A stretch of DNA of 64,000 nucleotides, from positions 8,843,001 through 8,907,000 of the forward strand of contig NC_092680.1 in NCBI RefSeq assembly GCF_964355755.1. The letters are read 5' to 3'. The notes beneath the pieces were generated by a model. It saw only the letters and a list, made by a program, of their open reading frames with translations. It was not told the DNA's origin and searched no databases. Position 1 is the stretch's first letter, and every line of letters starts with the position of its first letter. The DNA comes from Antedon mediterranea (lineage: Eukaryota; Echinodermata; Crinoidea; Comatulida; Antedonidae). Below are positions 4,079 to 53,000 of the stretch, piece after piece. A program made the translations under genes and the position numbers.

Positions 4079-7000
4079 TGAATTGGATAGTGTACATACA
4101 GTACATATGAATTGCATAGTGTACATACAGTACATATGAATTACATAGTGTACATACAGTACATATGAATTACATAGTGTACATACAGTACATATGAATT
4201 ACATAGTGTACATACAGTACATATGAATTACATAGTGTACATACAGTACATATGAATTGCATAGTGTACATACAGTACATATGAATTGCATAGTGTACAT
4301 ACAGTACATATGAATTACATAGTGTACATACAGTACATATGAATTACATAGTGTACATACAGTACATATGAATTACATAGTGTACATACAGTACATATGA
4401 ATTACATAGTGTACATACAGTGCATATGAATTACATAGTGTACATACAGTACATATGAATTACATAGTGTACATACAGTACATATGAATTACATAGTGTA
4501 CATACAGTACATATGAATTGCATAGTGTACATACAGTACATATGAATTGCATAGTGTACATACAGTACATATGAATTACATAGTGTACATACAGTACATA
4601 TGAATTACATAGTGTACATACAGTACATATGAATTACATAGTGTACATACAGTACATATGAATTACATAGTGTACATACAGTACATGAATTGCATAGTGT
4701 ACATACAGTACATGAATTGCATAGTGTACATACAGTACATATGAATTACATAGTGTACATACAGTACATGAATTGCATAGTGTACATACAGTACATATGA
4801 ATTACATAGTGTACATACAGTACATGAATTACATAGTGTACATACAGTACATATGAATTGCATAGTGTACATACAGTACATATGAATTACATAGTGTACA
4901 TACAGTACATATGAATTACATAGTGTACATACAGTACATATGAATTGCATAGTGTACATACAGTACATATGAAATGCATAGTGTACATACAGTACATATG
5001 AATTACATAGTGTACATACAGTACATATGAATTACATAGTGTACATACAGTACATATGAATTGCATAGTGTACATACAGTACATATGAATTACATAGTGT
5101 ACATACAGTACATATAAATTACATAGTGTACATACAGTACATATGAATTACATAGTGTACATACAGTACATATGAATTACATAGTGTACATACAGTACAT
5201 GAATTGCATAGTGTACATACAGTACATATGAATTACATAGTGTACATACAGTACATATGAATTACATAGTGTACATACAGTACATGAATTGCATAGTGTA
5301 CATACAGTACATATGAATTACATAGTGTACATACAGTACATGAATTGCATAGTGTACATACAGTACATATGAATTACATAGTGTACATACAGTACATATG
5401 AATTGCATAGTGTACATACAGTACATATGAATTACATAGTGTACATACAGTACATATGAATTACATAGTGTACATACAGTACATGAATTGCATAGTGTAC
5501 ATACAGTACATATGAATTACATAGTGTACATACAGTACATATGAATTACATAGTGTACATACAGTACATGAATTGCATAGTGTACATACAGTACATATGA
5601 ATTACATAGTGTACATACAGTACATATGAATTACATAGTGTACATACAGTACATGAATTGCATAGTGTACATACAGTACATATGAATTACATAGTGTACA
5701 TACAGTACATATGAATTGCATAGTGTACATACAGTACATATGAATTACATAGTGTACATACAGTACATATGAATTACATAGTGTACATACAGTACATGAA
5801 TTGCATAGTGTACATACAGTACATATGAATTACATAGTGTACATACAGTACATATGAATTACATAGTGTACATACAGTACATGAATTGCATAGTGTACAT
5901 ACAGTACATATGAATTACATAGTGTACATACAGTACATATGAATTACATAGTGTACATACAGTACATGAATTGCATAGTGTACATACAGTACATATGAAT
6001 TACATAGTGTACATACAGTACATATGAATTGCATAGTGTACATACAGTACATATGAATTACATAGTGTACATACAGTACATATGAATTACATAGTGTACA
6101 TACAGTACATATGAATTGCATAGTGTACATACAGTACATATGAATTGCATAGTGTACATACAGTACATATGAATTACATAGTGTACAGTACATATGAATT
6201 GCATAGTGTACATACAGTACATATGAATTGCATAGTGTACATACAGTACATATGAATTGCATAGTGTACATACAGTACATATGAATTACATAGTGTACAT
6301 ACAGTACATATGAATTGCATAGTGTACATACAGTACATATGAATTGCATAGTGTACATACAGTACATATGAAATGCATAGTGTACATACAGTACATATGA
6401 ATTGCATAGTGTACATACAGTACATATGAATTACATATGTGTACATACAGTACATATGAATTGTATAGTGTACATACAGTACATATGAATTGCATAGTGT
6501 ACATACAGTACATATGAATTGCATAGTGTACATACAGTACATATGAATTACATATGTGTACATACAGTACATATGAATTGCATATGTGTACATACAGTAC
6601 ATATGAATTGCATAGTGTACATACAGTACATATGAATTGCATAGTGTACATACAGTACATATGAAATGCATAGTGTACATACAGTACATATGAAATGCAT
6701 AGTGTACATACAGTACATATGAATTACATAGTGTACATACAGTACATATGAATTACATAGTGTACATACAGTACATATGAATTGCATAGTGTACATACAG
6801 TACATATGAATTGCATAGTGTACATACAGTACATATGAATTACATAGTGTACATACAGTACATATGAATTACATAGTGTACATACAGTACATATGAATTG
6901 CATAGTGTACATACAGTACATATGAATTGCATAGTGTACATACAGTACATATGAATTGCATAGTGTACATACAGTACATATGAATTGCATAGTGTACATA

Positions 7001-7213
7001 CAGTACATATGAATTGCATAGTGTACATACAGTACATATGAATTACATAGTGTACATACAGTACATATGAATTGCATAGTGTACATACAGTACATATGAA
7101 TTACATAGTGTACATACAGTACATATGAATTGCATAGTGTACATACAGTACATATGAATTGCATAGTGTACATACAGTACATATGAATTGCATAGTGTAC
7201 ATACAGTACATAC
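4079..7213. repeat. 29-bp satellite array (~108 copies)
   Basis: The array repeats CATAGTGTACATACAGTA followed by CATATGAATTA or CATATGAATTG, 29 bp per unit, over about 3.1 kb. Most units differ only at the A/G position after GAATT. A 27-bp variant lacking AT (TACATGAATTG) recurs, mainly between about 4680 and 5980, where it often heads a 27+29+29 bp higher-order unit. Rarer variants are GAAATGC and CATATGTGTA. Because 29 is not a multiple of 3 and the unit has no antisense stop, the minus strand shows long open frames cycling through all three phases (MYCMYTMQF-like peptides). These are repeat artefacts, not genes. Confidence 0.97.
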
Positions 7214-9796
7214 TTAAATATACATTTTGTATTCTAAATACCTTTGTTTAAAATTCAGTTTTATCAGAATGTATAAAACACAATTTTCATTAAAAATTTA
7301 GTTTTTTTAATGAAATTTGTATGAAATAGGTAATAGATATGTAATGTTATCTTATTAGGTTGAAAACAATGCCAGAATTTAGTATCCCAATAGAGAACAA
7401 TAAATGAGAACACAACATTGTTATTATTACATATTTTAATTCAGTGAGATATTATATGATATTCAGCTTTAAAAAAAAGAACATACGCCAAGCTTAGATA
7501 ACATTCATATGTAAATCAACCTGATTATGTTTTGTTGGATTCTGAAGCTTTAATTATTATCAATATGAACCACCCACGCAAAGTGCTAAAAAAAACTATT
7601 AAATCCAGACATACACTACTCAAAAACAATGGGTAACCTGATTCGTAGGTTTACTACATTGACAACAAATGCTGCAATAGAGTATACAGTTAATAGAATA
7701 AATAAAAGGATGATTAAAAGAAAATAAACGGTAGCTGTTAATTAACTGCAGTTTTATTGAGGAGTAGAGGCGAATCTAAAGAATAAAATACAAAAAATAA
7801 AAAATCTTTAACCTTTTGTTAATCATGAAGTCTTTGATTTGGTATGATTATCTGATCGTTACCTAAAAAAAAAGTTTGAATTTTAATTTCAATTGAAGAA
7901 TCGAAAGCTTGGTTCCCACTAGGAAAATGATCTTATATCAATTCTCCGTCCCCTCTATTAACAAAGTTGAATCATTACTGATTCGCAACATAGTTGTAAA
8001 AACATACAGTAGTAATCCATTATCAATCCCACTATATTTTTGTGCGAGTAATGTTGCAATGGATTGAAAGTTTGCAGCCACAAAATTCAATATTTTAATA
8101 GCTTAAACTGTTTTAAAGTTTAAAATTATTATTTTAAGTTACTGCTTTTCCCATCCTTCTATTGTTATTATTATTCGTTATTTATAAAGATGCTTTTCCA
8201 AAGAAAGACCAAAGCTCTGGACACAGTAATTCCATAGGTTGCTCGCTTGATTAATAGTGGGTAGTAACCTACACAATTGTGCTTCAAGAAAATATTGATG
8301 AGAAAACATACAGGAATAGACTTTAAACAAATACATATTTTATAAAAAAAATAATCAGAAATGTTTAACTGTAAAATAATCATCTAATATGGGAATTTAC
8401 AGAAAAAATCACCTTGTCAATTCATCCTGAATTTAAGATCAATAAATATATTCGACCTTTGAGGTGATTATAGCCTGCAAGCTAGATTAATTACTTCCTC
8501 TTTTATGATTGGTTACCATCTTTCAATGACCGCATTAGACAGCTTCATCTAAATTGAATTCATAGTTCAACAAGGTGCTTGAACTATTGAAAAAATGATT
8601 AAAATGCATCTGCAGTCCTGTGTAACATTTTAATAATGATATGAGATTTTCTGTTTAGCAAGAGTTGTAGTACAATGTTTGGTGTTAGTATGATAAAACA
8701 AATCAATAATCCTAAAATACCGTAAAATATAGAAGTTTCTACGGTTGAGGAAAATGAAGAGATTAAGGAATACAGATGATGATACTTACACACATCCAGC
8801 GTTGTGTGATGAAAATTATCAATATTAAATGCCAGTGGAATTTCATGAATAGTGCATACTGCCACCTAATATAGGAATTACTGTAATGTCTTTTCAGTCC
8901 AAACAGGAAGTAAAGTCATACAGTATTCATCTTCAGGATATTTTCATCGTTCTATGGTTTTACCTGTACTCATTCCAATATACACCATAAATGACTATAA
9001 TACACCAATACTAGGCTCAAAGAAAGTGCAGTGAGTTTTAGTCCTCATGGCACATATTGGGGAATGGCCCGGAATGTCTCTCCTACTTTGAGATGGTCCC
9101 TCTCTTTCAATGGCAAACTAGTAACATTTGTAAAGCAGCAACTGTATAAAGTAAAACCATGAATTGTTTTTACTTATTGAATGTCTGATGCCCTCTGCAC
9201 CCAACATTCAAAACAAATTGGCACCCTTGCTTCATATCAAAATATATGTTTAGCAGGCGTGGTCATCAGCTTTTGCAGTGGTATTGGAACATAAGAGATG
9301 ATCGTGTGATTAAATGCCCTGTAAATCGAAACAAACCTTTGAAGAGTTACAAATGATAAGATAAGATAGAGTAATGACCCTGCAATCATTTACCCCAATT
9401 ATCTATCACATTTGTAAATAAAAATATAGCAATAACACAAAGTACAAAGTAAAATTTCACCACATGACAAATAAATTAATCATAATGTGTGAGCAAAGTA
9501 GATTACAGTATTATTGTTTGAAGATAATCCTGTAGAAAACTTTACACCTCAGATATGCAAGGCGTTTGGCTAACTTTGTGCTCAACGAATAATCTGTTAA
9601 GTAATATATCTATTTGATAGGTAAATATAAATGCAATCTTGTTTGTGAAATACTTAACGTTTAAAATACTCTGTTAACTAAATACTCAACGGAAAAATTA
9701 TCTCAACATGAAAGTTCTAAACCGAAAACACAGACAAATTATCATACAAAACAGTAGGCCTACCTACAATACAGGGTTGCTGCATTCACATCAACT
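7214..9796. other. Non-coding stretch
   Basis: AT-rich sequence with many stops in all frames. No exon, RNA gene or clear repeat was recognised. Confidence 0.5.
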
Positions 9797-30531: not shown

Positions 30532-31607
30532 CAGTGGCGTATCCAGGATTTTGAAGTTGGGGGGGCCGGGATTGCCAATTTGCCGACAAAATTGGTGTCA
30601 TTATCTGTACATACACCTGCTCAATACATGTTCTAGGATTGCATAGTCATATTGTCTTATATGGGATAACGATGCAAAATTAAAACCAAACCAACATTAT
30701 ATGTTAGTATGTTGTATTCATATTACAATAAAGAAAGAATTAGGAAATTCTGATTTGTAGTTTTCGAAATATAGGGTCTAAAACATCACCGAAAATGATC
30801 GTTTTTAGCCACGAAAGAAGTAAAACAATTTACGGCCTCAGTCGACAATTCTATTAACTACAGTACGCCATTTTTTGGTTAAAATAATTACATATAATTA
30901 CGTTTTTTAGTAATTTATTTTATATATCACCATTGGAAATATCAATAAAACATGTTATTAAATGCTTATAAAATATATAAAGTTGTTTACTTAACGGAAT
31001 TCGGGCACTATTCATTGCTCTAACTTTGTGTAGTAGTAACGATCAGAGAGGTTCATAACATGGTACACGCGCGAGAGAAAACATTCCGCTGCGGGTGATT
31101 CGCATCCACCAATCAAATTAGCCAGAATCCAAAATCATTCAACCGTGAGCAATGCCAATCGCGAGAAAGCTCAGCTTTGATTGGCTTACGATGACATCAT
31201 ATCACAAAATGGTGGTTTTGGGGTTGAGCCTCACGGAATATTCTGTTATTTTTTATGGTATGTGTGCTTTTTCTTTAAAAATTTTGAATAATAAAGGCCT
31301 CATATCGAGAAAAAAACGGGTTTTTGGCACTTATAATAAATATATCTTGGACAAAAAAGCACATGGCATGTGGAACTATATAATCTTACTTATTCTTTAC
31401 TCCATGATCTGAAGTGATCATTGATCAATGATATGATATGTAAATAAACAAACACTCAAAAGAATTATGTTTACATACAGTTCAATTATTGTCAGAATAA
31501 TAGGCCTACAGTCGTTTATTTTTTTCCCCGGCACCTTTTTGCCGACGGACGCGATGATGTGCCGACGGGGGGCCCGGGCCCCCCCCCCCTCACTGGATAC
31601 GCCACTG
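30532..31607. mobile_element. Non-autonomous hAT-like element
   Basis: The left end is CAGTGGCGTATCCAGGATTT and the right end is its inverse (CACTGGATACGCCACTG), each followed inward by a G/C homopolymer-rich tract. CAGTGGCGTA-type ends are common in animal hAT elements (family knowledge). An 8-bp direct repeat GAGCGAGG flanks it at 30524-30531 and 31611-31618, the size hAT elements generate, although three extra bases (GTG) separate the right copy from the terminus. The 1.08-kb interior has only short frames and no hAT transposase domain, so this is a deletion derivative or MITE. Confidence 0.75.
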
Positions 31608-39810: not shown

Positions 39811-39933
39811 TCATGATTTCGTTAATAGCCTTAAAAGAGCGAGGGCTCCACATGATGCACCAGTAACGGCAAGAGCTTTAAATGTAAATTCCTCGGTCCA
39901 ATCTTTCCGCCTGAAGTTAGAAACAAATTCGTC
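39811..39933 (-). CDS. MCL1-like: MCL1-like exon 2: end of BH2 and membrane anchor
   Basis: This 41-codon exon, too short to stand out as an open frame, begins directly after an AG acceptor with DEFVSNFRRKDW. That completes the BH2 motif left unfinished by exon 1. It then encodes FKALAVTGASCGALALLRLL, a hydrophobic small-residue-rich tail anchor with flanking basic residues, and ends TKS-stop (TGA, 39811-39813). Phase 0 matches the upstream exon exactly. Confidence 0.93.
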   Translation of the reverse strand, partial: DEFVSNFRRKDWTEEFTFKALAVTGASCGALALLRLLTKS

Positions 39934-40820
39934 CTATGAAGAGAAAATATAATAATTGATTGTTAAATGAAATTCTTGTGACTGTGCGATTAAAACAATG
40001 AGTGTTAAATATTGAATTGAACTAATGCCAATTATTATTGATTTTAAACAGTCTATTGCATAAGTGGAATTCAAACTATTTATCATAAATTTGGCAAGAA
40101 CCCAATTCCCATAGGCATTCACATACACTGTCAAAAATATGCATTTACTTTTGGCTGAAAAGAAGCAAATTATCCCTTTAAATTAGTAAATATCCTTACC
40201 CATCCTCCTTGCTTATTAATCCAGCTAGATAGTCTTAATGCTACATATTCTCCAGTATATTTAATTAATGTCTCAACTTGATCATCAAGATTGTTCTCAA
40301 CACAATATTGGGCCAATCTGGCACCAAATACATAGACCATAATAACACGACCCCAATTAACTGGACCTTCTTCGAACATGGTATTCAAACTTGACGTAAA
40401 TCCATCAGATCCGTCCCTTTCAGGATTGTATTTTAACTTCCTTACAATTCCACTAAGAGAAATATCATATTTGCTACCAACTTCATCTCCAATCCTTCGC
40501 AGTGTTTCTGCATAATGCGAATTAACCTTATGATTTCTATGTACTTTGTAAGTAATAAAGTCCCTTGCAAGTTCTCTCGCTATTCGTTCAATATCTCCAT
40601 CCTGTTTATTTCCCCTTCTCATTCTATACTTAGGCCCGTCTACTTCTGATTCGTCTGAGCTGGCTGATGGCGTTGGGGAAGGCAATATGTCGACGTCATG
40701 GTTCTCTTCATCCTGGCTTTGCTGTTTAGCTGTATTAAAATACGTATTTGAAACGGCTTCTTTCTTTAGTGGCGATTCTGTTAAACAAGTCGCCGACATC
40801 TTCGATAAATTGTTAATCAT
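39811..40820 (-). CDS. MCL1-like: MCL1/BFL1-like anti-apoptotic BCL-2 family protein (2 exons)
   Basis: A complete multidomain BCL-2 protein that, by family, would sit on the outer mitochondrial or ER membrane, bind BH3 helices and restrain BAX/BAK. Coding exons are 40200-40820 and 39811-39933; the intron 39934-40199 starts GTAAGG and ends TTCTCTTCATAG. The product is 247 residues. In order: an acidic Ser/Pro-rich PEST-like region (about 37-63), BH4 (ARELARDFITYKV, about 79-92), BH3 (YAETLRRIGDEV, 103-114), BH1 (FEEGPVNWGRVIMVYVFGA, 149-167), BH2 (WINKQGGW then DEFVSNF, 200-214) and a tail anchor (about 223-243). The intron falls in phase 0 after the GGW tryptophan, the position I know from other BCL-2 genes. 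BH1 spacing (F-x-x-G-x-x-NWGR) is that of MCL1 and BFL1, while the BH4 is closer to BCL-XL. The first ATG is 40820; the next (40799) has a better Kozak context and would give 240 residues. The frame upstream has only non-ATG starts. Confidence 0.95.
40200..40820 (-). CDS. MCL1-like: MCL1-like exon 1: BH4, BH3, BH1, start of BH2
   Basis: This exon carries 207 codons from the first ATG to the GGW of BH2, followed by the GTAAGG donor at 40199. Without splicing the frame reads into VRIFTNLKG-stop, which destroys BH2, so the intron is needed. A possible acceptor (AAATTTCAG, ending at 40830) ten bases before the ATG allows for an upstream untranslated exon. Confidence 0.93.
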
Positions 40821-40919
40821 TTGAATATCCTGAAATTTAATAATGAACGTCAGTAACTTGGTCAGGAAGTGAAGAAAAATCAAGAATTTCGCCGGCTCCA
40901 CCAAAATTCTTCACTTTTC

Positions 40920-41110
40920 ACACTCTCCCTCCGCTTGCTGCTACACCAACAATCAGTGTTGTTACGTACGACGTGCGATATACGATCGTTTTACATGCAC
41001 CGTGGCTTTTCGATAGACGCTCTGTTTGTTCTTCTTATTGGTTCGCATGAGTATGCCTTATCCAATCATAATAAGTTCAATGATGACGCTCTCGCGAGTA
41101 ACTAATTCAC
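40920..41110. promoter_or_regulatory. Candidate bidirectional promoter between the MCL1-like and BH3-only genes
   Basis: The segment lies between divergent genes and is CpG-richer than its surroundings. It contains an inverted CCAAT box (ATTGG, 41037-41041), a direct CCAAT box (41062-41066), TGATGACG (CRE-like, 41081-41088), TCTCGCGAG (41090-41098, close to the TCTCGCGAGA core-promoter element) and TACGTACGACGTGCG (about 40963-40977). No TATA box is obvious. Divergent genes sharing CCAAT and TCTCGCGAGA-type elements are a known arrangement; the assignment here is inference from position and motifs. Confidence 0.5.
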
Positions 41111-41205
41111 CGACGCGAAAAAGAAAGATATTATTTTTAGTTCAAAACGTAGACATTTTTTTCGGAATTTTTAAAAAATTGTATTGCTATTTCGTGTATG
41201 TTATT
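41047..41205 (+). other. Possible first exon of the BH3-only gene
   Basis: A strong donor, GTAAGT followed by ATT, starts at 41206, and the frame before it is open with ATGs at 41047, 41053, 41080 and 41083. Splicing 41205 to 41893 joins the frames in phase 0 and would extend the BH3-only protein at its N-terminus (to about 146 residues from the 41080 ATG). The extension has no recognised domain, so this exon may equally be untranslated leader with initiation at 41908. Confidence 0.35.
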
Positions 41206-41270
41206 GTAAGTATTTAATAATTTTGAAATTAAAGAATACATATAATATATTTTCAAAATAGTAAACAATT

Positions 41271-41540
41271 TACTAGGGCCTAGGCTAGCCTAGCTAGGCC
41301 TAGGCCCTAGCTAGGCTAGCCTATCAGCTAGCTAGCTAGATAGTAGGCCGGCGCTAGCCCTAGTTGTTACAGAGTAGGCCTACTACCTAGGCCTAGCCTA
41401 GTACTACTACCGTACGCCTAGCTAGCTAGTACTACAGTACTAGTAGGTAGGGGATAGTAGGGCCTAGGCTGCCCTAGCTAGTAAGTTAGGCTAGGCCGTG
41501 TGCGTCTTGACTTATAATGTTAACTAGGCTAGGCCTATAT
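41271..41540. repeat. CTAG/AGGCCT palindrome-rich block
   Basis: The block is packed with CTAG, GCTAGC, CCTAGG, AGGCCT and TAGTACTA words in both orientations. It lies in the inferred first intron of the BH3-only gene. A similar block is at 37757-37920. It contrasts sharply with the AT-rich surroundings and is self-complementary at many scales. Confidence 0.7.
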
Positions 41541-41892
41541 TATTAATTACCTCTTATCTTATTTATATTTTATTGGTTTTGGGCCTGTTTCTGCTGCATT
41601 GATTGCATATCCTCTGTCTTTTATTTAATTGGCGATGAATATCACTGCGCCAAAAAAGATGTTCTTGTGTTTTAACTTGTCTTGATTGTTGAGGCAAGGA
41701 CAGGTGGTGTGTGACAATAAAAGAAATTCTCTTTCACGAATTTAATGATGAATTGTAGCAAATTGTGTATATAAGTATTTACAAAAACACCTCCCCACCC
41801 ATAATAATTGGTTCCAGGCCCAGCGGTATTATAACAATTTAATATAATTATAAAATTTATATAATAATACTGTATACTGTATTTCATTACAG

Positions 41893-42207
41893 AAATTAAA
41901 ATTAGCCATGAAACAACCATCAGAAAAAGATTTAAAAACACAAGAAAAGGAAAATGAAGAGGACACAAATATTACTCTCCATGTCTGCAAAAAATCAGGA
42001 AATCGAAAGCACTCAACAAACACAAAGATGACAATCGAACACGTTGGTCAAAATCTACGTACAGTCGCAGATAAAGTAAATGCAACTAGTTTAGGAGTAC
42101 ATCTTGGAGAAATTGGCGATCAAGTTGAATTCGATCAAAAAATCAAACCGTTGTTGTTAGTGTTTCAATCAAAGCAACCAGAACAACACACTAATATTAT
42201 AGAATAA
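41893..42207 (+). CDS. Candidate tandem-BH3 BH3-only protein (NOXA/PUMA-like)
   Basis: A 99-residue frame from ATG 41908 to TAA 42205-42207 follows an acceptor (TTTCATTACAG) and is open back to it. The N-terminal 40 residues are charged (Lys/Glu/Asn). Then come two BH3 motifs fitting h1-x3-h2-x2-h3-(G/A)-D-x-h4: V46-GQN-L50-RT-V53-AD-K-V57 and L62-GVH-L66-GE-I69-GD-Q-V73. The first (VGQNLRTVADKVNA) resembles the PUMA BH3. The second, with its DQKI tail and following PLLLVF, resembles NOXA. There is no BH1, BH2 or clear membrane anchor. BH3-only proteins bind the groove of BCL-2 relatives; NOXA prefers MCL1, and an MCL1-like gene is the divergent neighbour. Mouse NOXA, as I recall, is of similar length with two BH3s. 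The motif is short, so chance or another family cannot be excluded. Confidence 0.72.
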   Translation, partial: KLKLAMKQPSEKDLKTQEKENEEDTNITLHVCKKSGNRKHSTNTKMTIEHVGQNLRTVADKVNATSLGVHLGEIGDQVEFDQKIKPLLLVFQSKQPEQHTNIIE

Positions 42208-42599: not shown

Positions 42600-45154
42600 T
42601 GTATTCTGTACAATCCCTCCGATCTGGTGCTACATAATGGATGTGAAAGGCACTGTACCTTCTAACAAACATGCCTTATACAATTTATCACCGCATTTAT
42701 TGAAAAATATATAATTCATCTTTGTATTATAGTCACCATAGTTTGTATTCAAGATATTATATTTAATATGCAATCACTTGCCTAGATAATTCTATAATTT
42801 TTAATATACTGTATATAAATAAGTATCAGTAATCATTGGTTAAATATATTAATAGTACTACTAATCTATATGTATAGTGTCTGCAAGATATAGGGAAATG
42901 ATCTATATATTTTATATGATAAATAATTTGTGATTTAAACTGCCATTTATCTATACTTCACAATCATAATATATACTATTGTTTTTGTGCAATAAACATA
43001 TTTTTTAATAATTAAATTTTCTTTTAATTATTGCATAGTTCTGAAATAATGAGACATAACTTTTGGGACAAACACACACATTATTGATGGTGCCATCCAT
43101 TAAATGCCATAACAAACTAAAGAATGTTGTTCTTTAAACAAAGTACCGTACTGATGCTCAAAAGTTAATAAAGGTACAATCTACTAAGATCTTTGGAAAC
43201 TTTATCAAATTATAGGGGGCGACAGACAGAAAATAAGCATTGAGTGGTTGACATTGGTACGGTGATAGGTTTGCATTTCGTTTCCATGAACAAAATAATA
43301 TTATGCTACTAATTACTTAAGCAGGGCTTATAGTGCTAAGGCGGTCCTTGGTTGTTAAACTAAGAGTTTGATGATCAGCATTTTAACAAAAACATGTCTG
43401 TATATTAGTTAAATTATTTTTTTTTCGACTAATTTTTGGTGAAAGTTAATCACTATTATGATACTTCAAAATGACCCACTTTTTTTCGAAATCTTTTTTT
43501 TTTAATTTTTTTGGAATTAGTCAAAGGGACAATACATCTTCAGTAAATCAGTAGTAAACATTTTGTGTAACGTAAATATATAGCCTAGCCTACTGTACAG
43601 AACAAAAATAAAATCATAAACTAAACCGCCGTTCCGCAACCTATGGGTCGCGACCCAATGTTTAGGTCGCGAAAAAAAAATGATGGGTCGCGAAATTGTT
43701 TGCGATACTGAAACTTGTTATCAATTATACACTGATTTATATGTGAAATGTTCTAAGTTTTGTAGAATCTACAACACTGATTACATTTTACATTTACAGT
43801 TTTTCCCTATGTTGACGTTCGGCGAGTCCATAGCGTAGGCCTACACACAACACAATTGGGAATCGACGACGGGGAAATGGACGATTTTGACGCATAGAGT
43901 TCGTTGTTAATAGTGGGGAATCCCCTTTTAGGACGCGGTTTTAATACATATTAACTGGTTCTACGACGCTATTTTCTGTAGTTTTCAAAGAAGTGTGTCT
44001 TGACTAAAAAACTGCGAACTTTGATGTACCGGCGGTGGGAACTTTTAAAATTAGATTATTAAATTAGAATAATAAAAAGAACAATATAAACAGGTCCATC
44101 CCACTCTTCAGGCCTTTATGGTTCAGGAGAACCCTGACGTTAGCATTGAACGCAAATGTGTATACCGGCGGAAAAAGTAGCTGGCACCGCCGGTGTTTTT
44201 GTAAGATCAAATATATACGCAATGTTGGGTCGAGAAAGTTCCCAAAATAGGATCAGATCAGGTAAAAAAGGGAACGCTGGTCTAAAGAATATCGCCGTCG
44301 AATGTGTCTCGATAGGCCGGCCGCACGCACGGACACTGGTGGTAGTTGAGTAAGCATGAGGCTACCACTAAACTATATTATTATATAGGCCTAATGGATA
44401 GGCTAGGAAAAATGGTGGTGGTCAACACAATCATTTTTTGTTCACATTCCATAGACCTATATTTACACCTACTACGTTGTTGATGAACATCACTAATTCA
44501 TGGTGAGAAGTACCTATTACTAGGCCTAGCCTAGATCCTAGTTTTTGTTCCTTCACCCACGCTCGCCCACCTGTTGAGCATGCAGCAGACGATAAGAGAA
44601 AAGTTTTTGAATAATTACGCATGCTCATTTTTATTTTGCAAATGGGCGGAGTTAAATACTGTCTGGAAACTATTAAATTATTGTTAATTTTAGCCTTTTG
44701 AGTATCATTATGATTACTAAAAAATCAGAGCTCGGTAAAAAATGTGTGTTTGTAGATAGATTTCAATAGACCTAGTAATAGTATAGAAAGTACTGTATAT
44801 TTCCACAGGACTGCATCACTCTCTGATCATAGTCTTTCTATTGACTATGCTCTGATGATTAATAAAAACAAGCCTAGCGCCCTCTATTTGTATTTGGTGA
44901 AAACTTTTGATTGATTAAACTTCTTTTGATGTATACCGGCGGAGCCAACGGTATGGTTTATAATTGCTTTTCTAACGTACAACCAATGAAGAACAATTAA
45001 TTTATTGGTGTTATTTATTTGGCCAGCGAATTACAGTTCAATTTACCAACAACATTTTCAACTGAAATGCTTCATTTATCCGAATTTCTTATTCAACTGA
45101 GATACAGTACTTATTTAACTGAGTTCCTTATCCAATTGTGAGGTCCTTATTAAG
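42600..45154. other. Non-coding stretch with transposon remnants
   Basis: No gene supported. At about 43629-43700, CAACCTATGGGTCGCGACCC followed by TTAGGTCGCG and GGGTCGCGA resembles widely distributed hAT element ends. The 43.8-44.35 kb part is more GC-rich and contains TACCGGCGG at 44027 and 44163 (again at 44934), the second forming a short hairpin with CCGCCGGT at 44187-44194. The open frame at 44156-44353 starts at a non-ATG codon and shows no domain. Confidence 0.45.
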
Positions 45155-45883
45155 GTGATTAATGAAATATTTACAGTAGGTGCTCATTATATTTGCAGTA
45201 TGCATCTTTCTACAGCTCAAACGTTGTTGATACAACCAATGTATAGGCCACCGAGTTCAAATGACGATTGGCTCAATCAATTCCACGATGTCGTTGATTT
45301 TATCCTATCTATTTTACATAAGTACTGTGGTATAATTTTAACTGGTGATTTTAATTATGATTACGGTGTTGATAGTCCCTTAGTTTATAAGAAATTTAAA
45401 GAAATTATTGCTCCACTTGATACTATACAATTTGTTGATTTTTTTACTCGTGTATCTAACACCAAAAGTAGCATTATTGATCTGGTCTTGTGCAATAACC
45501 TTGACATTGTATGTAATTTCAGAAGTCATCCCGGTCTCAGTACAAGTGACCACCTTGGGGTTTATTTTAATATTAACGCTAGATGCAGTAAAGTTAAACC
45601 TGTAGATAGATATTATTATCAATATAGTAAATGTGACCATGACGATCTTTTTACAACGTTGGGGGCGGTTCCTTGGGGACTGTGCCTGGAACAATCAGAC
45701 TGTGAGGAAATGTGGGAAAATTTTAAAGACCTCTTTCTCGCCACTATCAACGATTGTATCCCTAAAGTCAAAAGTAAAAAAAGAAACAGGCCACTTAAAA
45801 ATAAAACAGATCACATCAACATATCTTTAATATCTTTTATTCTTGTGTCTAAAACAACATGTTTCATTCAATCTATTGTATAG
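45155..45883 (+). pseudogene. Truncated LINE endonuclease (AP-type) fragment
   Basis: A 242-codon frame starting at a GTG matches the C-terminal two-thirds of the apurinic-type endonuclease domain of non-LTR retrotransposons, which nicks target DNA for reverse transcription. Visible motifs are YRPPSS (30-35), LTGDFNYD (62-69), TKSSIIDLVLCNN (103-115) and the catalytic SDH (131-133). A conserved-type basic linker (KSKKRNRP) follows near 207-213. The N-terminal part of the nuclease, including its first catalytic residues, is absent. No reverse transcriptase follows: downstream to about 46080 only stop-laden remnants remain. This is a dead 5'- and 3'-truncated copy, probably of a CR1/jockey-type LINE; the exact clade cannot be fixed by eye. 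Confidence 0.85.
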
Positions 45884-50074: not shown

Positions 50075-53000
50075 CTAGGAGATAATAATCAATACATTAT
50101 TAGAATTTGTTATAGTCAGAATATGTGGTTAACAAATCACACTGAAATACATTGAATTCATCAATATCTTTAAATAACACGGTACAAAGTACCGTAATAT
50201 CTGTATAATACAGTAGAATAGAACTTCTATTAAGGGGACACTTTAGGATCTAAGTGTCTATTTGACCAATGACCATAAGGGACTTGACAGTTAGACACAT
50301 AATTTTGTAAGAACTTTCTTAAATTATAAATTAGGTTAGTTAGAACTGAACAAATTTAATCAAACAATCAGTGAATGCTTACCCTACTGTTATATCAAAA
50401 ATGTTACTACCAACCGAACTTGAGACAGCCATGTCCCCTAAGCCCTTCCTGGCAACTATCACACTGGTTATCAAGTCAGGAATACTCGTACCAGCTGCTA
50501 TAAATGTCAAACCCATAACCTAATCATAAAGAATCACAATTTATTAAACTATCCACATCTAAAACACTATTAATGATTACAGTAGAGCACTACACTACAT
50601 CTTTGACTGCATCCTTCATTTTACTACAGCACTTATTAAACTGCATCCCTCATTTCACTACAGCACTTATTATTAAACTGCATCCCTCATTTTACTACAG
50701 CACTTATTAAACTGCATCCATCATTTTACTACAGCACTTATTAAACTGCATCCCTCATTTCACTACAGCACTTATTATTAAACTGCATCCCTCATTTTAC
50801 TACAGCACTATTAAACTGCATCCCTCATTTTACTACAGCACTTATTAAACTGCATCCCTCATTTTACTACAGCACTATTAAACTGCATCCCTCATTTTAC
50901 TACAGCACTTATTAAACTGCATCCCTCATTTCACTACAGCACTTATTATTAAACTGCATCCCTCATTTTACTACAGCACTTATTAAACTGCATCCATCAT
51001 TTTACTACAGCACTTATTAAACTGCATCCCTCATTTCACTACAGCACTTATTATTAAACTGCATCCCTCATTTTACTACAGCACTATTAAACTGCATCCC
51101 TTATTTTACTACAGCACTTGTTAAACTGCATCCCTCATTTTACTACAGCACTTATTAAACTGCATCCCTCATTTTACTACAGCACTATTAAACTGCATCC
51201 CTCATTTTACTACAGCACTATTAAACTGCATCCCTCATTTTACTACAGCAGTATTAAACTGCATCCCTTATTTTACTACATCACTTATTAAACTGCATTC
51301 CTCATTTTACTACAGCACTTATTAAACTGCATCCCTCATTTTCCTACAGCACTATTAAACTGCATCCCTCATTTTACTACAGCACTATTAAACTGCATCC
51401 CTTATTTTACTACAGTCCTTGTTAAACTGCATCCCTTATTTTAATTACTACAGCACTTATTAAACTGCATCCCTTATTTTACTACAGCACTTTTTATAAT
51501 TGCATAGCTCTCACTCCACTGCATGCCTTATTTAACTGCACAGCCTTTAATTCCACTACAGGACTTATTTTATTGCAGTCCTTATTTCACCACACGACTT
51601 ATTTGATTGTCGCCCTTATTTCACCACAGGACTTATTTGACTGCAGCCCTTTTTTCACCACAGGACTTATTTGATTGCAGCCCTTATTTCACAATACAGT
51701 AGGACTTATTTGATTGTAGCCCTTATTTCACCACAGGACTTATTTGGCTGTATCCCTTATTTCACCACAGGACTTATTTGATTGCAGCCCTTATTTGACT
51801 GCAGCCTTTATTTCACTAAAGCAGTTACAGGGAGATTTCTTAGTAAGTTTTTTTTTAAAAACCTAGTAGTAGTAGTGATATAACTCAAGGATGTGAACCC
51901 TGAATTTAAATAAGCAGGCTACCGACAAGGACTACTATACTCAATCAATATTGATTCAACTTTACTTATTAAATCAGCCAAGCATTAAATTATAGCAAAG
52001 TAATTCCAATAAATCTGCTATAACGATCGTTGAAACAATCAATCAATCCATACATTGATCCATAAAAGACAGATCGGAGAAACAGGCAAGCAATTAATCA
52101 ATTCTGATTCTGAAAACTGGTGGAACTCAGGGTCTGTTTCTGCTGCATATCGCTGAATAAACCGATTATTTCAAAAATGTAATTTTTATATTAACCGTTT
52201 AAATCACTATGTGGTCGTTAACAAAATCGTTACAATTACCCAAAATGCAATTGGTCTTGGCGGTTAATTTAAACGTTACTGCAGTGCAGTTGACTCAAGG
52301 TCAGCAGCTGTCAATCAATTTTAACTGGTTATTTTGCGCTGCCTTTTATTTAACTGGTTACCACAAAACTGTCCTGTTTCTGCTCCAAGAAAATGAACTT
52401 AATTTATTCACACCGTTTTCAACCGGTTATTTTTATGCAGCAGAAACAGGCCCTCAGACTCTGTTTGGTGAAACTTTTACAATAACAATTTTAATACAAT
52501 TCAATCTGGAGAACCGTATTGTGGTAAAAAGGGGGAACTATCTTAGGGCACAAATAATGGATTTACCCCTGAAAGATGAAAGTTTACCAAAATCTTGAGA
52601 TGTTTTAATGAGAACAACAAACCATATAACATATTTCCACTGGTCTAAAGAGTAATGTACACATCCAAACAGGTATTAACAATAGAGGTGACAAAAAAGA
52701 TAAAAAACTTACAGGTTCGGGTATGCCAAATGTTTCGCCAACTTCAGTTGCCCACCAAACCATTAGGTATGAGTAACACGCGATAAAAATCAATGATACA
52801 GAAAAGCTCAACACAAAAAACTTTTTTCTTTCCTATTTAAAAGAAAAACAAATGTTAGTGAAATCAGAAAAGCGGAAAATGAAATGATGTATGAAATAAG
52901 GTATTGGCAGCATCCTTTTGGTTGTCGAAAATACTATAATATAATCGAATTCACTAACAATTATTTAATCTCTTGATGAGATATACTAATCAATGAACTG

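Follow-up and report, generated by a model that had tools for sequence, protein, structure and literature searches.

Among the closest described relatives of the arrangement considered here are the EGL-1 and CED-9 proteins of C. elegans and the NOXA and MCL-1 proteins of mammals. The nematode genes egl-1 and ced-9 are not known to share a locus, ced-9 lying in an operon with cyt-1, and mammalian NOXA and MCL1 lie on separate chromosomes. NOXA-type BH3-only proteins bind MCL1, and a contact between the aspartate of BH3 and the BH1 arginine of the NWGR motif is known for BCL-2 proteins. Outside the vertebrates BH3-only genes are hard to spot by sequence. Sequence by itself is regarded as too little to identify a protein as BH3-only (PMC7022251), and the echinoderm candidates, which were found with BIM, BAD and BMF as seeds, are presented in the section devoted to them as putative and awaiting proof (PMC8998228). 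A divergent pair made up of an MCL1 gene and a BH3-only gene does not appear among the matches listed for the open-access literature (titles and abstract starts), which is not proof of absence.

The DNA analysed, hereafter the window, is a stretch of 64 kb with a GC content of 32% from a genome of 354 Mb in 18 contigs. It includes an exon of a sodium/calcium exchanger (50391-50501, minus strand; Pfam PF01699, E 1.5e-10), which by eye we take to be of SLC24 type, part of the endonuclease of a LINE-type retroelement (45119-45880, plus strand; PF14529, E 6.7e-8), and a long array of a short repeat (4663-7233, minus strand) that is open in several reading phases, while a search of the window against Rfam returned no match. 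A search of the genome for COX1 found no match, although 8 of 14 controls gave one, and a search for MHC-I found none here or in any control; copies of 18S are present. The style of the repeats hints at an ambulacrarian.

Two genes at the centre of this report lie head to head in the window, and their sequences suggest that the locus probably consists of a lineage-specific BH3-only candidate paired divergently with an MCL1-type guardian around one CpG-rich region, the candidate being a putative antagonist that would act at the groove of the guardian. The guardian is encoded on the minus strand as follows:

40799-40200, minus strand: MCL1-like coding exon 1, 200 aa, with BH3, BH1 (NWGR) and the first part of BH2
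40476-40514, minus strand: MCL1-like BH3, YAETLRRIGDEVG, best match of the BH3 scan at 29.2 bits
39933-39811, minus strand: MCL1-like coding exon 2, 40 aa and the stop, with the end of BH2 and the hydrophobic C-terminal tail

The two exons are joined at a GT-AG junction (40200/39933) into an uninterrupted protein of 240 aa, which matches the Pfam Bcl-2 family at E 2.2e-24 and in which BH3, BH1 (NWGR) and BH2 of the domain are all present. By eye, exon 1 encodes an N-terminal PEST-like segment, and the tail FTFKALAVTGASCGALALLRLLTKS is a hydrophobic C-terminal anchor with a separate exon of its own; an in-frame ATG upstream at 40820, following an acceptor-like AG, could give the protein 7 more residues. 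Assignment to MCL1 rather than to other BCL-2 types is favoured, not strongly, and the label kept here is MCL1-like. MCL-1 is the best PDB match (E 3e-16, 63.1 bits), followed by BCL-XL, BCL-w and BAX at 60.3, 59.2 and 58.8 bits, and in a comparison with seven human family members, their sequences entered by hand, human MCL1 comes out on top at 70.9 bits, with BAX at 67.4. These matches agree with an earlier, sequence-only reading of this DNA, which had recognised a complete BCL-2-family gene of MCL1/BFL1 type on the minus strand. In a tree of 15 rows the protein groups with MCL1 at a support of 84/81, 9 of the 12 inner branches being open, and an RK pair following its BH3 aligns with the RK of human MCL-1, which makes up the basic patch through which MCL-1 accommodates NOXA (PMC2871139). 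A structure model built from six rows of the same genome is weak (pLDDT 58), and Foldseek places BCL-XL chains first for it (E 5.6e-5), a ranking that shows the BCL-2 fold and gives no help to the MCL1 label. The contig of the MCL1-like gene also carries, at a distance of about 250 kb, a divergent BCL-2 gene (L007; G000:C11:8632083-8632304) whose BH1 is without the NWGR motif.

On the plus strand lies the putative partner:

41893-42207, plus strand: putative last exon of the candidate BH3-only gene, with the frame P0001 at 41908-42207, 99 aa
42043-42081, plus strand: BH3 motif a, VGQNLRTVADKVN, 19.8 bits, with V46, L50, V53, A54-D55 and V57
42091-42129, plus strand: BH3 motif b, LGVHLGEIGDQVE, 13.0 bits, with L62, L66, I69, G70-D71 and V73

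The frame is preceded by the splice acceptor TTTCATTACAG, judged convincing, which ends at 41892, and there is no in-frame stop from the acceptor to the ATG, so that an upstream coding exon of the plus-strand gene is possible. Both motifs fit the pattern h1-x3-L-x2-h3-[GAS]-D-x-h4, with hydrophobic residues at h1 to h4 and the invariant Asp, and their aspartates are 16 residues apart, leaving 3 residues between the 13-residue cores. They were scored with a position-weight matrix made from 15 BH3 sequences entered by hand, of which human and mouse NOXA alone were checked against the PDB, and this matrix was run on every stop-free 13-mer in the six frames of the window (n=53,673). The guardian's own BH3 ranks first, and motifs a and b, the two that the sequence-only reading had picked out in this small exon, rank second and third; the fourth match (10.1 bits) once more belongs to the MCL1-like frame, and outside both genes the scores go no higher than 9.3 bits. 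Leave-one-out scores of the known BH3s range from 6.9 to 34.8 bits, with 4 of the 15 below motif a and 1 of the 15 below motif b, so that both motifs are weak to middling as BH3s.

An open stretch that does not code, or an exon of an unrelated protein, could conceivably carry two BH3-like helices by chance, and the plus-strand frame might be of this kind. The BH3 motif is short and degenerate, sequence alone is regarded as insufficient (PMC7022251), and the AT-rich window contains 15 open frames of at least 110 aa, several of them in repeats. The frame is single-copy in the genome, without a paralogue, and P0001 finds no significant match in Pfam (best zf_ZIC, E 0.08, chance level) or the PDB (best ribosomal L7Ae, E 0.93, residues 17-72, chance level), no Bcl-2 domain by Pfam, and hence no other BH domain in the predicted exon, and no relatives in the prokaryote collection genome_contigs. 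Against this stands the presence of two full motifs in one frame beside an MCL1-like gene. In 60 windows simulated from the dinucleotide frequencies of the window (2,885,528 13-mers), 7 of the 13-mers reach 12.97 bits and 1 reaches 19.77, and not a single pair 10-60 aa apart in one open stretch was found. The plain BH3 pattern has 3 matches in the window, 2 of them being motifs a and b, compared with 1.1 matches per simulated window and no pair in 30 simulations, and the like of the two-motif frame arose in none of 20,001 residue shuffles. Control loci from the same genome (31 loci, 109,074 bases, some overlapping, with L001 and L013 left out as overlapping the finding) gave 7 matches at the lower threshold, that of motif b, 6 in BCL-2 loci and 1 in the kinase locus L021 when assigned by locus and not by exon; L006 and L011 overlap and have one match in common, which leaves 6 distinct matches, 5 of them in BCL-2 loci.

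Codon usage bears on the same question. Codon frequencies were taken from 6,436 codons, the longest open frame of each of 18 loci for kinases; at 4 of these loci that frame and the listed kinase frame are unequal in length. Scored from its ATG, P0001 reaches +14.1 bits, and over the exon its own frame is positive while the other five are negative; scored from stop to stop the frame comes sixth of 116 with 5.3 bits, and its best segment, at 16.4, is third of 104 segments scoring at least 7 bits, behind the MCL1-like exon (44.4) and a segment in the CpG-rich gap without a known gene (17.1). These scores back the coding nature of the frame moderately, not decisively, and their modest size counts in favour of chance. 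An AlphaFold model of P0001 from the single sequence is uninformative, its mean pLDDT of 51 being unable to tell disorder from lack of an alignment, and it has strand, not helix, at residues 61-65. The simulations and shuffles nonetheless make a chance origin of the two-BH3 frame unlikely, and the view that it is a non-coding stretch or an unrelated exon is given a low probability.

If the plus-strand frame is a BH3-only gene, as we prefer to read it, its type may be sought in the whole protein and in the segment that follows the motifs:

42127-42168, plus strand: tail after motif b, EFDQKIKPLLLVFQ, for which the human NOXA tail is the best of 14 compared (score 11, shuffle P 0.02, weak)

The sequence-only reading had called the gene NOXA-type, and in its strongest form this would make it a true orthologue of NOXA (PMAIP1), with a NOXA-MCL1 axis that predates the vertebrates and was once linked, a variant of the preferred reading. 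The human NOXA tail leads among the 14 BH3-family tails (the runners-up, mouse NOXA and BAX, score 5 each, with P 0.07 and 0.027), by eye the plus-strand protein is without a long hydrophobic anchor, and mouse Noxa also has two BH3 motifs (PMC2871139), although there they are spaced 51 residues apart, F23 to E74, and here 16. The NOXA Pfam model PF15150, however, has no match in P0001, nor any in the genome, where the search is a weak one in that control genomes were without a match too. Whole-protein alignment with eight human BH3-only sequences, entered by hand, is not specific for NOXA either, the shuffle p being 0.0005 for BIM, 0.0015 for PUMA, 0.0105 for NOXA and 0.0115 for BID, and at least 0.1 for BAD, BIK, BMF and HRK. 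Orthology with NOXA is thus not supported by Pfam model, tail comparison or whole alignment and is very improbable; taken together, these results point to a BH3-only candidate of no particular type, NOXA-like in appearance and not established as a NOXA. What survives of the earlier interpretation is the MCL1-type guardian, the tandem-BH3 frame, the head-to-head placement and the CpG-rich gap, and what has to be given up is the NOXA-type label, BIM and PUMA fitting at least as well. A search for other BH3-only genes with a BIM model gave 2 matches when E values as high as 10 were admitted, and neither passed the cut-off (best E 0.32).

A further variant of the preferred reading would derive the BH3-only gene from an inverted duplication of the exon that carries the MCL1-like BH3. 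The two genes are placed head to head and motif a is similar to the BH3 of the guardian itself (HYAETLRRIGDEVG against HVGQNLRTVADKVN), as such an origin would have it, but BLASTP between the pair gives E 2.4 and local alignment against shuffles P 0.064; the duplication is not supported, and we consider it very improbable. An internal duplication relating motif a to motif b was also rejected: at the DNA level 20 of 48 positions are identical (P 0.14), and the protein similarity (P 0.001) is discounted because a shared BH3 motif would give it anyway.

Between the two genes lie the features that bear on a common control region:

40801-41200: CpG-rich stretch, CpG observed/expected 1.79, the maximum of the window, against 0.52 overall
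41090-41097, plus strand: TCTCGCGA promoter-like element, 2 in the window, 0.05 expected in 64 kb
41206-41892, plus strand: putative intron in the 5' UTR of the plus-strand gene, which we infer from a donor GTAAGT at 41206 and an acceptor AG at 41891-41892

As a divergent pair we took genes whose transcription starts lie back to back, no more than about 1 kb apart, with a CpG-rich region common to both. At this locus the start codons, which are not transcription starts, are 1,108 bp apart, in line with the separation of about 1.1 kb given by the sequence-only reading, and the single CpG-rich stretch between the genes corresponds to the one intergenic region that it had proposed. The TCTCGCGA sequence is taken here as a promoter element. 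CCAAT boxes at 41037 and 41062 point apart, among five CCAAT in the 1.1-kb gap, a count that is not striking, and of the seven donor-like sites listed, the donor at 41206 would splice to 41893. The CpG peak, TCTCGCGA, the CCAAT boxes and the donor site are consistent with one bidirectional promoter, and the CpG-rich stretch is a likely promoter common to both genes. One alternative is that the BH3-only gene is real and has a promoter of its own or elsewhere, with transcription beginning close to 41893 or a first exon beyond the gap, in which case the adjacency would be accidental and there would be no co-regulation. The CpG peak is closer to the MCL1-like gene, and the 5' exon is conjectural, placed by donor-like sites of which 41098 and 41206 are two of the seven listed, and both points would suit a separate promoter; the gap nevertheless has only one CpG peak, and it is within this gap that TCTCGCGA and the two CCAAT boxes pointing apart are found. 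A separate promoter is accordingly held to be unlikely, while retaining appreciable weight.

Other features of the gap and its surroundings may be recorded. The second of the two TCTCGCGA copies in the window, at 31159, lies in another CpG peak (30700-31200; 1.73), and a further promoter is probably located there. A dense CTAG/CCTAGG palindromic tract at about 41270-41500 lies inside the possible intron; the window has 140 CTAG sites, 25 of them in 41001-41500. A p53 element in the gap was considered and rejected, the decamers at 41282 and 41313 being separated by a spacer of 21 inside the CTAG-rich tract; p53-type decamers number 21 in the 64 kb, and none are paired within 13 nt.

Under the preferred reading of a divergently paired guardian and antagonist, both genes would be transcribed away from each other out of one CpG-rich region, and the small gene would give a protein of 99 residues, or a slightly longer one. 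Docked in the hydrophobic groove of the MCL1-like protein, with their Asp against the BH1 Arg of NWGR, the BH3 helices of this product would neutralise the guardian and free BAK/BOK-type effectors; the same genome has genes of both kinds, BAK-like (L005, L006) and BOK-like (L002, L004). With only 3 residues between the cores, the two motifs would more likely bind singly, as a redundant or avidity pair, than occupy two grooves at once. A divergent pairing would be unusual in that it couples opposite outcomes to one promoter, and if the small gene is expressed the pair could set the life-or-death balance of the cell at one control region, whether by co-regulation or by the toggle that the sequence-only reading had suggested. 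More tentatively, and with rather less than even confidence, guardian and dedicated tandem-BH3 antagonist may constitute one locus whose bidirectional promoter sets the ratio of life to death at the level of transcription, and the locus would then act like an addiction pair. Such a pair would open the co-regulation of guardian and antagonist to direct study, and a BH3-only gene that can be located by its position beside MCL1 would provide a synteny handle for other animals.

Parallels with the described systems are instructive. EGL-1 and CED-9 of C. elegans are a BH3-only antagonist and a BCL-2 guardian working as a pair, like that proposed here, although EGL-1 has one BH3 and the plus-strand frame has two. 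Mouse NOXA, at about 100 aa, is near the 99 aa of the frame, and a short hydrophobic tail patch and an MCL-1-type partner are alike in the two systems. The frame further shares with mouse NOXA its two BH3 motifs, and the MCL1-like partner keeps the RK patch of MCL-1; the locus differs in its closer motif spacing (PMC2871139) and in having no match to PF15150. The echinoderm candidates are, as here, from invertebrates and have their BH3 within one exon, the sea-cucumber candidate being of 118 aa against 99 in a comparison by description only, and the section that presents them describes neither genomic neighbours nor tandem motifs (PMC8998228). If the one-locus arrangement is correct, it would represent a third wiring of BCL-2 control, besides the dispersed genes of mammals and the single pairs of C. 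elegans.
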